Source: a bacterium | Lineage (GTDB): Bacteria; SM23-31; JAUVVT01 | Direction of reading: 5' to 3' | DNA length: 20,331 bases | Assembly: GCA_030616165.1 (NCBI GenBank) | Contig: JAUWXV010000041.1 | Coordinates: 1-20,331, forward strand | In this document: positions 12,974 to 20,057 of the stretch, in pieces | How the letters are laid out: every line of letters starts with the position of its first letter | Position numbering within the stretch: the first letter of the stretch is position 1 | The notes under the pieces: model-generated | The model's database searches: none | The model's input: the letters and a program-made list of their open reading frames with translations, nothing else | Told to the model about the DNA's origin: nothing | Position numbers and translations under genes: made by a program

Positions 12974-13735
12974 ATGAGAAACATTATGATTTCGGGATTA
13001 ATTGTTTTGCTCTTGTCTCCGGTTTCATTCAGCCAGGAGCTAACGGGTGAAGACATCATTAAGAAAGTAAATGAGTTATTCAATCCCCAGACAAGTTGGG
13101 GAAAGTCGAAGATGACCATTATGACAACTTCAGGCAGTAAACGAACATTTGTCCTTGAATCGTGGAGCAAGGACAAAGGTGAGAAAAATCTTGTCCGTTA
13201 CCTGGAACCAGCGCGTGTCAAGGGGCAGGCAACATTGATGCTGAATCATGCCGATGATATTTGGATGTATTTCCCACGAACTCAACGAGTTCGAAAACTC
13301 GCCACACATGCGAAAAAGCAAAAAATGCAGGGAAGTGATTTTTCTTACGAAGATATGGGAAGCGGAGACTCCTTTATCAATGATTTCAGTCCAAAAAGGC
13401 TTGAAGATGAAAAAATGGAAGGACATGATTGTTATAAACTTGAACTTACACGTAAAACGGATAGAGACATTTCTTATTCGAGATTAATCATGTGGGTCAT
13501 CAAAGAAAACTTTTATCCCATAGTTATAGATTATTATGACGAAGATGACTCCACTCTATTGGAAAAAAGATTGGTCCAGAGCGATATTCGCCTCATCGAT
13601 AACATTCCGACTGCGATGAAGGCGGTTATGTATAATAAAATGGATAACACACAGACAGAGATGGAGTTTCTCGATGTTAAATATAATGTTACGTTAAATG
13701 ATGATATGTTTACAGAAAGGAGTTTAAAAAAGTGA
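12974..13735 (+). CDS. LolA-like outer membrane lipoprotein-sorting protein (periplasmic)
   Basis: 253 residues. I chose the ATG at 12974 because AGGAG lies eight bases upstream and because it gives a clean signal peptide (MRNIMISGLIVLLLSPVSFSQ, cleavage near residue 20). An in-frame ATG at 12947 would put nine charged or polar residues before it. The mature part matches the LolA-like outer membrane lipoprotein-sorting family found beside MMPL transporters: SWGKSKMTIMT, NLVRYLEPARVKGQATLML, WMYFPRTQRVRK, and the hallmark MQGSDFSYEDM. It probably shuttles a lipidic molecule across the periplasm between the transporter and the barrel encoded downstream. Its stop codon overlaps the GTG start of the next gene, indicating translational coupling. 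Confidence 0.88.
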   Translation: MRNIMISGLIVLLLSPVSFSQELTGEDIIKKVNELFNPQTSWGKSKMTIMTTSGSKRTFVLESWSKDKGEKNLVRYLEPARVKGQATLMLNHADDIWMYFPRTQRVRKLATHAKKQKMQGSDFSYEDMGSGDSFINDFSPKRLEDEKMEGHDCYKLELTRKTDRDISYSRLIMWVIKENFYPIVIDYYDEDDSTLLEKRLVQSDIRLIDNIPTAMKAVMYNKMDNTQTEMEFLDVKYNVTLNDDMFTERSLKK

Positions 13736-14922
13736 AAAAACGGATTTCAATGCTGCTGTTTTTTTCTTTCTATATATCTCCTCTTATGGCGCAGGATAGT
13801 GTAGAGCTATTTGGATATTTCGAATCACAGATAATGGGTGTAAAAATCAAGAGCGATTTTTACCAGCTTTATACCAATAAGTTACGGGTGGATTTAAAAT
13901 CCAACCTCTCCGAAAACATCACGTTCGCGGCAAATTTCGATTACATTACATATCATGGTAAAAAGGAATGGAACATACTGGATTTTTTATCCTCCGGCAT
14001 CACTTCCAAGGTTCCCCAGGACAAGGAATCGGATTACGAACTCCCATTTTACAATCGAAATTTTCTCGATAATGCCTATATAAAAATTGCCTTTAAAAAT
14101 TTCGACTTAACGGTTGGAAAACAACAAATTTCTCTGGGTACCGGTTATGTCTGGAATCCAACAGATGTATTTAACATAAAGGATGTCCTCGACCCGACCT
14201 ATGAGCAACCCGGTCATAATGCAGTGCGTTTGGATGTGCCTCTATCCACTGTATACACAATCACCGCACTCTATTCACCTGAGGATACATGGAAAAATTC
14301 TGCTAAATTACTCCAATTCAAGGGGTGGACTTCACACTTTGATTATTCCATTATAGCGATTGAAAAACTCTGGCGTTTTCACGATTACACCCAGTTTAAC
14401 GATGAGAACTCGAATTTTGTGGAATTACCCGAGCGGCGACAACTTTTAGGTGCGAGCACGGCAGGGGAACTTCTGGGATTGGGGGTCTGGGCAGAATACG
14501 GATACAACAAAATGGAGTATTCTAAAGATTTCTATGAACTTGTGGTTGGCACAGATTATACGTTTGATTTTCAAACCTATGTGATGTTAGAATTTTACAG
14601 GAATACGTTGGGAAAGAAAGATTACGAACAGTATGATATCAATGATTGGATGCGGCAGTTTACTGCTGAACAAAAGGCTATATCTCGCGACCAGATTTAT
14701 CTCTTCGTCCAGCACCCGACAACGGATTTCCTGAGCCTGGGCTCTTCAAGCATATATAGTATTTCAGATAAAAGCATGGCTTTGATTCCGACTCTAAATT
14801 ACAGCCTCTCAGAAAATATAGATATTATGGCTTATCTTAATTTCAATTTTGGCAGAGAAGGAAAAGCTTTCTCCAAAATTTCAGGAAATGGTGGATTACT
14901 CCGGGCTCGAGTCTATTTTTAA
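13732..14922 (+). CDS. Outer-membrane beta-barrel protein of the MMPL/LolA-like operon
   Basis: 396 residues, GTG start at 13732 overlapping the upstream TGA by four bases, with AAAGGAG nine bases upstream. A signal peptide (MKKRISMLLFFSFYISPLMAQ) is followed by alternating amphipathic strands rich in aromatic residues. NAYIKIAFKNFDLTVGKQQ and GTGYVWNPTDVFN are like barrel proteins (DUF1302-type) that accompany LolA-like and MMPL genes. The protein ends RARVYF, with the terminal Phe typical of outer-membrane barrels. The family assignment is by resemblance; the barrel nature is well supported. It would be the outer-membrane component of the transport route. Its stop codon TAA overlaps the first two bases of the left inverted repeat of the inserted cassette. 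Confidence 0.78.
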   Translation: MKKRISMLLFFSFYISPLMAQDSVELFGYFESQIMGVKIKSDFYQLYTNKLRVDLKSNLSENITFAANFDYITYHGKKEWNILDFLSSGITSKVPQDKESDYELPFYNRNFLDNAYIKIAFKNFDLTVGKQQISLGTGYVWNPTDVFNIKDVLDPTYEQPGHNAVRLDVPLSTVYTITALYSPEDTWKNSAKLLQFKGWTSHFDYSIIAIEKLWRFHDYTQFNDENSNFVELPERRQLLGASTAGELLGLGVWAEYGYNKMEYSKDFYELVVGTDYTFDFQTYVMLEFYRNTLGKKDYEQYDINDWMRQFTAEQKAISRDQIYLFVQHPTTDFLSLGSSSIYSISDKSMALIPTLNYSLSENIDIMAYLNFNFGREGKAFSKISGNGGLLRARVYF

Positions 14923-14940
14923 CCGCGAATTTCGCGAATT
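14921..14940 (+). repeat. Left inverted repeat of GxxExxY cassette
   Basis: AACCGCGAATTTCGCGAATT. It matches the reverse complement of 15363-15382 at 17 of 20 positions. The arm has an internal 9-base periodicity of the form CGCnAATTn. The outer end overlaps the barrel gene's stop codon. Confidence 0.8.
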
Positions 14941-14972
14941 ATTTTTATTTGAAAAAGTTAGAGAAAAAAAGG

Positions 14973-15359
14973 ATGGTACAATTATTATTTAAAGAGGAAG
15001 TTTATAAGATAGTTGGTGCATCTATGGAAGTACATAGAATATTAGGTTCAAATTTTATTGAAGCTGTATATCAAGAAGCTTTATCAATAGAATTTAAGTC
15101 GAGCAATATTCCATTTGTTGAATTTCCTCAATTGAAAATAGATTTTAAGAGAAATATATTGAAAAAGAAATTTGTTTGTGATTTTATATGTTATAATGAA
15201 ATTATTGTAGAAATAAAAGCAATAAACCAATGTGGACATAATGAAGAAGCTCAAATAATTAATGCATTAAATGCTTCAAAGAAACCAGCAGGAGTATTAA
15301 TAAATTTTGGCGAAACTTCATTATACTGGAAACGATTTGTAAACACTAAACAAAATTAG
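14973..15359 (+). CDS. GxxExxY family protein (PD-(D/E)XK nuclease-like)
   Basis: 128 residues from the ATG at 14973; a TTG at 14949 in the same frame would add eight residues (MKKLEKKR) but has no ribosome binding site. The family pattern is clear: EEVYKIVGASMEVHRILGSNF, then IEAVYQEALSIEF, then FVCDFICYNEIIVEIKA and ALNASKKPAGVLINFG. The Asp, Glu and Lys of the PD-(D/E)XK fold appear intact (CDF and VEIK). The Gly that gives the family its name is Asn here (NFIEAVY). Function of the family is unknown; a nuclease-like fold is established for it by family annotation. Codon use is strongly AT-rich compared with the genes on both sides. It is enclosed by inverted repeats and sits inside an operon it has no evident link to. 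Confidence 0.88.
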   Translation: MVQLLFKEEVYKIVGASMEVHRILGSNFIEAVYQEALSIEFKSSNIPFVEFPQLKIDFKRNILKKKFVCDFICYNEIIVEIKAINQCGHNEEAQIINALNASKKPAGVLINFGETSLYWKRFVNTKQN

Positions 15360-15362
15360 TGA

Positions 15363-15382
15363 AATTTGCGTAATTAGCGGTT
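15363..15382 (-). repeat. Right inverted repeat of GxxExxY cassette
   Basis: Read on the minus strand: AACCGCTAATTACGCAAATT, 17 of 20 identical to the left arm and 19 of 20 identical to the arm at 20000-20019. It begins four bases after the GxxExxY stop codon. Confidence 0.8.
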
Positions 15383-15415: not shown

Positions 15416-18283
15416 ATGAGAGAAATCATCCTTAAGAAATTAGCGAACTGGCATACTTCCCATCCATTGAGAATGCTTCTGATTGTTATACTTTTAACTA
15501 TTATTTTAGGTGGATTTGCAGGGCAGTTAACAATCACCATGCAAACATCAGATTTATTGCCTGAGGGTGATAAAAGAGTCGTTCAATTCAACAAGATTTT
15601 AGATGAGTTTTCAACTGCCACAAGCCTTGTTGTTGTTGTCCAGGGTGAAGAAGAACGTATCAAAGAGTTTGCCGACAAACTCGCTCCCCGAATCCTAAAA
15701 TTAAGGGATAACAGCCAAAATGATTCATTTCAGAAAGAAATCGATAAACTTCAAAAAAATATAGAGAAACTTAAGACAAAAAAGAATAAAGAAGAAGAAA
15801 TAGCCGAACTTCAATCCAAAATCAAAACCTTCCAATCACGCATAAATATGCAATTGTTCCAGCGTGTGGATTATAAGACTGAAATCGATTTTTTAAGAAA
15901 TCACGCCTTGATGCTGGTCAAAGAAGAAGATTTAAAAAACATAAAAGATATCTTTATGGACCCGAATCTATCGGGATTGTTGTTTAATATTAACAACTCT
16001 ATGGAGAGAGAGTATGTGGGACAGGAAGAATCAATTTCTACTCGCGAAAAAGAAGACGGCGCAGTATCTTTTTTAGATGGTATTCAAAATCTTGTTATAA
16101 ATTTACAAAAGACAGGGCGAGGGGAAGAACTCTCAGAAATGGAAATCAGGAAAGTTGCGGACAAACTGCTGTTTGGTGAACCATATATGCTGTCTTATGA
16201 TAAGAAAGCCCTTGTTTTAGTCGCTATTCCAAACTTCACTATCATGGACCGCGACCTGCTTATGGTAGCAAATGAAGCCGTTCAGGAGATAGTTGATGAA
16301 ATGTTAAGGAACTTCCCGGATGTAGAAGCAGGTTTGAGTGGGTCGATTGCAAGAGAACACGATGAACAGGTCTATTCCACGAAAGCTTTAGGCTCTTCCA
16401 CAATCATCGCTTTGATTGCCATTTTAATTTTTCTCATGGTCTCCTTCAGGATGTGGGTGGCTCCAATTTTCGCCATATTAACTCTAATAATCGGCGTAAT
16501 TTGGGCACTTGGAGCTTCATGGATTGCCGTGGGACAGCTCAATATGATGACGTCTATGATGTCTGTCATCCTGCTTGGTCTTGGTATCGATTTTGCCATC
16601 CATTTGATTTCCGGATTCACAGAATGGCGTGCCGCAGGGGACAGTATCGCCGTAGCACTGGAAAAAACATTCTTAAAGAGTGGAAAAGGAATTATAACAG
16701 GAGCAGTAACTACAGCCTGTGCCTTCTTAACACTTATCATCAGTCAGGCTCGGGGTATGAGAGAAATGGGAATCGTTGTAGGAATAGGTCTGATATCAAT
16801 CCTTTTGGCAACGATGTTCTTTCTGCCGGTAATGTTGGTGTTTAGAGAACGCCTAATTGATAAAAAACGAAGAAAGGGCGAAGCCCTCGAAAAGTTCGTT
16901 CAGCGGGATATCTCCTTTCGTTTTTTAGGCCGTATTGGCGAATGGCTCAGCAAGCGATATATCTTTACGGTCACAGCCTCCTGCATAGTAACGCTTTTGC
17001 TCGTCCTGTCAGCATTCCAGATTACATTTGACCACAATTATATGAATATAGAACCAGAGGGTCTAACTTCGATTGCACTGATGGATACAGTCCTTGAGAA
17101 ATTTGATTTACACATAGAATATGCTCTCATTTTATCTGATAACGTTGATGAATCCCGTGAGACTTCAACAAAATGTCGTGAATTGAGTTCAGTGGCGCTC
17201 ACAGACGACATCTCATTATACCTCCCATCTAAAGAACAGCAGCAAAAAAGAATTCCCCATATCACCGAAGTTCGTAAAAAAATTCAGTCCGCTCGTATTA
17301 AAGATTCTTTACTGCCGAATGAATTGCCTGCTCTAAGTAAAGAGATTGAGCGCCTCGAGATGAATATAATGGAAATGCAGGATATGGCTTTTCTTGGTGG
17401 TCAGGATAAAGTGGACAATAAATGCAAAGAAATCGTCGGAGACCCCGAAAAGCCCAATTCCAGAAATATCATTCGGGAATTAAATGAAGTATTAAACGCA
17501 GATGTTTCAACGTCAGCAAAAGAATTGTCCGCATTTCAGCGAAATTTTTCCCCGTATTTCAAAGAATCTGTTATAAGTATGTGCTCTACAGAACCCATTA
17601 ATCTTGACGAACTCCCTGTATCCATTTTGGACCGATACAGCAACATAAACCGGGACCAATTCCTGGCTACTGTCTATCCGGCAGGCAATCTATGGGAAAA
17701 TAAAGAGTTACTCGATCGGTTTGTTGATGATATAGAAAGGGTGAGCGATAAGGCAACTGGAATGCCTCCTTTGTTTGTTGCTCTGATTAGAATATTCGCT
17801 CGTGATGGACGGAATGCTGTATTGTTGACCTTGGTTATTGTTTTTCTCTTGTTGTGGGTGGATTTTCGAAATCCAAGATATGCTTTGATGGCTATGATAC
17901 CATTAGCTTGCGGCATATTCTGGATGGTGGGACTAATGCACATGTTTGACATGCAACTCAACATGTTAAACGTAATAGGGCTTCCGCTGATTATTGGTAT
18001 AGGCATTGATGATGGAGTGCATATCATGCATCGTTGGAGACACGAAGGGAAAGGTAAAATTCTAACAGTATTTTCCAGCACCGGAAAAGCGATTCTTCTT
18101 ACTTCGCTGACAACTATGTTTGCATTTGGCTCACTGGCTTTTTCTATTTTCCGTGGCTGGGCTTCATTTGGGACTACCCTCTTTATAGGAGTGGGCGCCT
18201 GTTTTTTGACAACTGTAATTATCTTACCCGGAATTCTCGGGATAATTGAGAGAAAAAAACAGCAGGAAGATTTTAAAGAATAA
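15416..18283 (+). CDS. RND superfamily MMPL-type transporter
   Basis: 955 residues in two homologous halves. Each half has one membrane helix (about 18-38 and 515-535), a large periplasmic domain, then five helices (about 323-475 and 798-945). The RND proton-relay Asp motifs are present in both halves: GLGIDFAIH (D392) and GIGIDDGVH (D865, D866). Both periplasmic domains contain Lys/Glu-rich coiled-coil segments (about 103-143 and 635-660), which is uncommon. ATG follows AAGGAA. The family exports lipids and lipophilic compounds by proton motive force; with the LolA-like and barrel proteins it probably forms a complete envelope route. The gene was presumably adjacent to the barrel gene before the cassette arrived. 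The substrate cannot be inferred. Confidence 0.92.
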   Translation: MREIILKKLANWHTSHPLRMLLIVILLTIILGGFAGQLTITMQTSDLLPEGDKRVVQFNKILDEFSTATSLVVVVQGEEERIKEFADKLAPRILKLRDNSQNDSFQKEIDKLQKNIEKLKTKKNKEEEIAELQSKIKTFQSRINMQLFQRVDYKTEIDFLRNHALMLVKEEDLKNIKDIFMDPNLSGLLFNINNSMEREYVGQEESISTREKEDGAVSFLDGIQNLVINLQKTGRGEELSEMEIRKVADKLLFGEPYMLSYDKKALVLVAIPNFTIMDRDLLMVANEAVQEIVDEMLRNFPDVEAGLSGSIAREHDEQVYSTKALGSSTIIALIAILIFLMVSFRMWVAPIFAILTLIIGVIWALGASWIAVGQLNMMTSMMSVILLGLGIDFAIHLISGFTEWRAAGDSIAVALEKTFLKSGKGIITGAVTTACAFLTLIISQARGMREMGIVVGIGLISILLATMFFLPVMLVFRERLIDKKRRKGEALEKFVQRDISFRFLGRIGEWLSKRYIFTVTASCIVTLLLVLSAFQITFDHNYMNIEPEGLTSIALMDTVLEKFDLHIEYALILSDNVDESRETSTKCRELSSVALTDDISLYLPSKEQQQKRIPHITEVRKKIQSARIKDSLLPNELPALSKEIERLEMNIMEMQDMAFLGGQDKVDNKCKEIVGDPEKPNSRNIIRELNEVLNADVSTSAKELSAFQRNFSPYFKESVISMCSTEPINLDELPVSILDRYSNINRDQFLATVYPAGNLWENKELLDRFVDDIERVSDKATGMPPLFVALIRIFARDGRNAVLLTLVIVFLLLWVDFRNPRYALMAMIPLACGIFWMVGLMHMFDMQLNMLNVIGLPLIIGIGIDDGVHIMHRWRHEGKGKILTVFSSTGKAILLTSLTTMFAFGSLAFSIFRGWASFGTTLFIGVGACFLTTVIILPGILGIIERKKQQEDFKE

Positions 18284-19803: not shown

Positions 19804-19934
19804 ATTATATCAAAAATTATATACAAACTAAACCTTTAAATGTCAAGTAAAAAATATTTATTTTTATATTTAAATTACCAAAAAATCAATCACAATTCTA
19901 AATTTAATCTATGAGTCAATTCTAAAAATGCTAA

Positions 19935-19954
19935 ATCCGCAAATTTCGCCAATT
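19935..19954 (+). repeat. Left arm of gene-less inverted repeat pair
   Basis: ATCCGCAAATTTCGCCAATT, 17 of 20 identical to the left arm of the GxxExxY cassette (14921-14940). Confidence 0.7.
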
Positions 19955-19999
19955 AACACTGATTGTTCTTTTCTAACTTAAGTAATATTAAATTCTTGA

Positions 20000-20019
20000 A
20001 ATTAGCGTAATTAGCGGTT
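20000..20019 (-). repeat. Right arm of gene-less inverted repeat pair
   Basis: Read on the minus strand: AACCGCTAATTACGCTAATT, 19 of 20 identical to the right arm of the GxxExxY cassette. The identity continues a few bases inward (TGAAATT precedes the arm in both places). Confidence 0.75.
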
Positions 20020-20057
20020 TCTATAGCAGACTCATTTACAACCCCTCAAAATTTCCC

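Follow-up and report, generated by a model that had tools for sequence, protein, structure and literature searches.

The locus analysed here raises the question of why a single small gene of the GxxExxY family sits between inverted repeats within a host operon, and whether gene and repeats form a mobile unit. In the 20,331-nucleotide stretch of DNA under study (the window), the gene lies between an outer-membrane barrel-like gene, itself preceded by a LolA-like gene, and a gene for a transporter (Table 1). The first-pass annotation described 20-bp inverted repeats around the GxxExxY gene, the left one overlapping the barrel stop codon without damage to the barrel protein. Both statements hold. 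The repeats, at 14921-14940 and 15363-15382, are complementary at 17 of 20 positions, and the left arm begins inside the TAA stop codon at 14920-14922, leaving the barrel protein intact.

Table 1. Positions of the GxxExxY element, its neighbours and a gene-less mini-element in the window
Feature	Position	Strand	Remarks
Upstream host operon gene, outer-membrane barrel-like	13732..14922	+	orthologues without the element exist
Element left end	14921..14941	+	AAC and two tandem 9-bp units, CGCGAATTT CGCGAATTA; overlaps the barrel stop codon
GxxExxY gene	14949..15359	+	start TTG 14949 or, more likely, ATG 14973; predicted PD-(D/E)XK nuclease
Element right end	15353..15382	-	three tandem 9-bp units; reverse complement AACCGCTAATTACGCAAATTTCACTAATTT
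Downstream host operon gene, HpnN-like/MMPL RND transporter	15416..18283	+	
Gene-less mini-element	19911..20035	+	same array class, arms 19938-19963 and 20001-20016; outer ends ATGAGTC/GACTCAT

Both arms are built of inward-pointing tandem 9-bp units (CGCnAATTn), with two in the left arm and three in the right, whose reverse complement reads CGCTAATTA-CGCAAATTT-CACTAATTT. The PF13366 ORF is the only ORF between the two ends, with no transposase of the DDE, HUH, serine or tyrosine type beside it, and the element sits between protein-coding genes, outside the 23S rRNA gene. Short inverted repeats of 70-80% identity are common in the surrounding 1-kb region, as might be expected if the pair were an ordinary intrinsic terminator pair or a chance product of AT-rich DNA. 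Against this, the pair is the only one of its kind in the window with 380-460 nt between its arms, and a pair so spaced appeared in 0/6 shuffled windows and in 1/300 shuffles of the 1-kb region. It is moreover tandem, recurs across phyla and co-varies with the protein, so the survey described below already contradicts this explanation, which we regard as very improbable.

The GC content of the gene is 25.5% (GC3 16%), compared with 39.5% (42%) and 40.2% (40%) for its neighbours. The earlier description of its codon use as more AT-rich than that of both neighbours is accurate in itself (GC3 16% versus ~40%), but the trait is general to the family, the gene having a lower GC content than its flanks in 97/103 GxxExxY loci. 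AT-richness alone is therefore no sign of recent arrival.

Inverted tandem arrays around GxxExxY genes

We surveyed 80 loci from a scan of one genome per species (84,980 species) together with intact copies from relatives, 99 of them with usable flanks. Each locus received an inverted-flank score, defined as the best local match between the left flank and the reverse complement of the right flank. A score of at least 30 was found for 68% of the 99 GxxExxY loci, leaving about one third of them below this threshold. The corresponding share was 1.9% among 321 other genes from these loci, 5.9% when flanks were mispaired and 0.8% after shuffling. In the extracted flanks, the repeat boundary thus recurs around GxxExxY genes. 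The two opposite outcomes, repeats placed at random relative to the gene and a gene kept at one fixed site in all lineages without repeats, were both looked for and neither was observed.

A motif scan for inward CRCNRAK units spaced at 9 or 10 bp, mostly three in number and no more than 150 bp from the gene, found 75 inward versus 15 outward arrays on the left and 87 versus 23 on the right. Beyond 150 bp, array counts per 150-bp bin drop to background. Because the motif was derived from the surveyed loci, we used loci from plasmid records as a small independent look; three of these (L264, between fabD and fabG of Sphingomonas, L265 and L261) have the same design as judged by eye. Loci with both arrays belong to 13 named phyla. 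Within the window's own genome (3.74-Mb assembly), the remaining GxxExxY genes whose flanks could be read are likewise enclosed by inverted tandem arrays, including one copy exactly between leuC and leuD, as identified by reading the flanking frames. These copies carry different unit sequences (CACAGAGAA, CACAGATTG), so the array type is not set by the host genome.

The family is common in chromosomes. It was found in 0/50,697 phage records, in 7/72,556 plasmid records, several of these large or chromosome-like, and as one partial match in viral contigs. Given this near absence, hitch-hiking on phages or plasmids was rejected as an explanation of its spread.

The survey also returned more elaborate arrangements. 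One locus (L119) is a two-gene cassette in which GxxExxY is accompanied by a 370-aa ORF without Pfam match and the right array lies 1.2 kb downstream, which suggests cargo capacity. This locus and L136 (G045:C75) are two GxxExxY cassettes 3 kb apart on one contig. At another locus (L117, G052), long G-rich tandem arrays of ~7 bp surround the cassette arrays on either side, which looks like a nesting of two classes.

Where the arrays end, the element ends. Aligned on their first unit, 59 left/right pairs have an identity of 0.92, 0.90 and 0.73 at positions -1, -2 and -3, after which identity falls to ~0.4 and then to the control level; the boundary is sharp, with the consensus A-W-C-C (AWCC outermost). 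Blast homology between elements at non-homologous sites breaks off no more than 5 bp from the predicted end in 53 cases on the left and 89 on the right. A further 12 and 5, respectively, fall 6-20 bp short of it, and only 3 and 8 run past it by more than 15 bp. Loci L062 and L078 have exactly the element in common, at unrelated sites.

The ends also follow the gene. Protein identity correlates with array similarity (Mantel r 0.53, p<=5e-4), the corresponding value for GC being r 0.05, and the nearest protein neighbour belongs to the same array class in 43/59 cases versus a null mean of 15. On the maximum-likelihood tree, array classes need 15 changes versus 31 when shuffled, and a single CGCGAAT clade has members in Acidobacteriota, Planctomycetota, Lentisphaerota and Chloroflexota. 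Ends and gene are therefore co-inherited. Among elements of one class, the left and right ends of the same element are more alike than the ends of different loci (p 0.0002 in each of three classes). At a site shared among Holophagaceae, both ends read ATCCACAGATT in L057 and AACCGCAGATG in L100, a concerted change. Recognition of the arrays by the protein would best explain this pattern, with hairpin pairing as the other possibility.

Insertion sites, related operons and gene-less copies

Comparison with orthologous operons lacking the gene, which the first-pass annotation had recommended, was possible for two relatives. In L014, with a barrel 63% identical, the gap is ~27 bp and holds neither gene nor array. 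In L013, with a barrel 81% identical, there is no gene and the same gap contains a hairpin of ACAGGATTT units (fold z -5.4). A third array class, ACAGGATTTACAGGAT, found mostly as gene-less hairpins in G005, G044, G001, G023 and G006 (L267-L284), is also present once at L013:1300-1500, in the operon gap occupied in the window by the GxxExxY cassette. The plasmid-borne relatives examined have no close empty site.

Across 59 loci, no fixed target duplication stood clearly above the mispaired control (lengths 2-12, offsets 0-6), and the reported lack of both a transposase and a clear target duplication is borne out. Direct repeats are present in ~22% of loci; they are mostly extra gene-less arrays together with a few duplicated host flanks (L121, L123, L002) and hence do not amount to a general target duplication. 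No general outer terminal repeat beyond the arrays was detected in the 59 loci, which come from many phyla. Outer terminal repeats were also considered as the true ends and rejected, as they were not found outside array-rich loci. Among the duplicated flanks, L121 and L123 each have, downstream of the cassette and accompanied by an array, a repeat of the 3' end of their upstream host gene (BMC-domain-like and tyrS-like). In L002 (G000:C259), a GxxExxY copy lies between 26-bp direct repeats that span the leader and start codon of hisG, and this start codon appears to have been taken over by the reading frame of the copy.

The window's own genome also holds gene-less copies. The 125-bp mini-element of Table 1 has ~17 copies there, two of which (C50, C163) match it in the core only, and each of its inner arrays has its counterpart in one of the two ends of the window GxxExxY cassette. 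Its outer end ATGAGTC also abuts a DUF772 transposase ORF (L310, C42). Likewise, CACAGAG-type mini-elements, with ends TGTCAAAA..TTCTATGAAAA, share these ends with the flanks of a Y1_Tnp (RAYT-like) ORF (L333, G000:C302). Because their outer ends are shared with DUF772 and Y1 transposase genes, the gene-less copies in this genome were likely dispersed by other enzymes. The mini-element at 19911-20035 can be classed as a MITE, being gene-less with ends shared with a resident transposase gene; the window cassette, which lacks these outer ends, cannot.

These copies bear on an alternative in which the whole cassette is a non-autonomous, array-bounded passenger that depends for its movement on resident transposases (DUF772/IS1182-like, RAYT-like Y1 or others) acting in trans, while the nuclease has another role. 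The outer ends shared with the two transposase ORFs fit this account, as do the 2-bp flanking identities or palindromic target seen at some mini-elements. It sits poorly with the window element, which is without outer ends, and with the 59 loci, which reveal neither a general outer terminal repeat nor a fixed target duplication. It also does not predict, beyond co-inheritance, that the array type follows the nuclease protein. We consider it unlikely, though a serious competitor and the strongest of the alternatives.

The sites themselves are of a consistent kind. Upstream genes share the strand of the cassette in 45/51 loci, and many left ends fall 0-30 bp beyond the stop codon of this upstream gene. 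Presence of the gene is patchy, with many truncated copies. Some elements have been retained at the same site within Holophagaceae and Anaerolineales (L057/L063/L100 and L038/L041/L051). Such a long stay also fits a useful resident gene, and dN/dS between species, at 0.05-0.13, indicates strong purifying selection. Both observations would agree with a domesticated host module, in which gene and arrays serve the host, for example by processing mRNA hairpins or repairing DNA ends, and owe their spread chiefly to vertical descent and homologous recombination. So would the orientation of the gene along the operon, the near absence from phages and plasmids, the concerted change of both arms and the hairpins into which the gene-less copies fold, as computed here. 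Patchiness and truncation speak against a host module, as do related elements at unrelated sites with homology ending exactly at the arrays and the occurrence of one array/protein type across four phyla; we judge it improbable, and more so than transposition in trans.

The first-pass annotation had proposed a selfish or mobilised cassette. This description is partly supported, by the recurring boundary, its travel with the gene, the operons lacking the gene and the homology that ends at the arrays. The word selfish is not established, owing to the strong purifying selection and the retention at one site across Holophagaceae.

The predicted nuclease and a model for the cassette

The window protein (128 aa) is a clear member of its family, matching TIGR04256 with 116.2 bits (cut-off 35) over positions 2-116/116 and PF13366 (PDDEXK_3) with 108.6 bits (cut-off 22). 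A PDB sequence search with the protein returned no match. Its structure model (pLDDT 93) is closest to Cas4 SSO0001 (4ic1; Z 9.9, 3.6 A over 102 residues), in agreement with the nuclease-like fold claimed at the outset, and further matches are to RecB/lambda-exonuclease-type nucleases (lambda exo, LHK-Exo, RecE). We therefore model GxxExxY as a predicted Cas4/lambda-exonuclease-type PD-(D/E)XK nuclease. With Cas4, lambda exonuclease and RecB-family nucleases the family shares the fold, the D...ExK motif and, at the family level, QxxxY; the window copy keeps D70, E80, K82 and Q94 (numbering from ATG 14973) and has A98 in place of the Y of QxxxY. It differs from Cas4/RecB-type nucleases in its small size, in its position as a stand-alone gene between repeat arrays and in the near-invariant family columns, which include no conserved cysteines for an Fe-S cluster.

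Taken together, these results lead us to propose a widespread family of minimal mobile cassettes of ~450 bp, each with one nuclease gene between inverted arrays, a reading to which we assign a probability of roughly 0.6. That the cassette is discrete, repeat-bounded, confined to a single gene and inherited as a unit is well supported. Two inverted arrays, usually of three 9-10-bp units, form the exact ends of each cassette. In the proposed model, the cassette would enter gene junctions, mostly directly behind a stop codon and in the orientation of the host operon, leaving both neighbours intact without a fixed target duplication, and would probably be expressed from the host transcript. In RNA or single-stranded DNA, the arrays may base-pair to a hairpin, and the nuclease may recognise this structure and then trim or cut it. 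Insertion could be completed by host repair or annealing, which would account for the missing duplication. The nuclease would probably process the ends of its own cassette, and self-mobilisation by the nuclease is plausible. We put forward only tentatively the wider proposal that GxxExxY is a new type of mobility enzyme, one that would recognise its own inverted tandem arrays and drive insertion into operon junctions without target duplication in at least 13 phyla, with S23p genes and their 7-bp arrays as a second, parallel class.

Several known systems resemble this arrangement. RAYT proteins belong to the Y1 HUH transposases, and a REP consists of one palindrome. The cassette has the terminal inverted repeats, discrete ends and multiple copies of insertion sequences and MITEs; its inverted repeats coincide with its exact ends, and it differs from those elements in lacking a transposase and a fixed target duplication. 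The likeness to RAYT/REP (TnpA-REP, REPtron) systems (PMC2817692, PMC3116915, PMC8266576) lies in a lone small gene enclosed by inverted extragenic repeats, in repeat pairs without a gene at other places in the genome and in an intergenic, chromosomal location. In the cassette, GxxExxY is a predicted PD-(D/E)XK nuclease with no Y1 HUH gene, and both ends consist of direct 9-10-bp units in an array. Inverted repeats with gene-less copies elsewhere, as in a REPtron, are present, the copies in the window's own genome mostly having IS-like outer ends.

The intervening sequences of 23S rRNA, which carry an ORF for the S23p four-helix bundle and have been proposed to be selfish, likewise place a single small ORF within a long inverted-repeat stem (PMC4990558). 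They differ from the cassette in protein fold, in unit length (7 bp in S23p versus 9-10 bp) and in location, rRNA versus an mRNA operon junction. We also observed that four-helix-bundle genes of this family (TIGR02436), in the window's own genome (L007, L008, L009, L011) and elsewhere (L145-L173), lie between inverted tandem 7-bp arrays with units such as AGAAGACAGAAGACAG, GGTAAAAGGTAAAGG and GCTATTA. About 20/28 of these loci lie above the 99th percentile of mispaired flanks, forming a parallel class.

Defence-system models gave no match, nor did Rfam at the gathering threshold. The literature we searched, a scope that left subscription journals, preprints and family notes outside, neither prints these repeats nor describes the biology, repeat boundaries or mobility of GxxExxY.

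A large protein family without a known role thereby gains a concrete context, as the sole gene of a repeat-bounded cassette, and the ends, the unit length and the co-variation with the protein open the way to direct biochemical tests. The parallel with 23S rRNA intervening-sequence proteins would make the old question of selfish elements testable. If the nuclease moves its own cassette, it would be a kind of mobility enzyme that belongs to none of the DDE, HUH, serine and tyrosine classes; otherwise, the cassette would be an unrecognised passenger in many phyla that exploits host operons.
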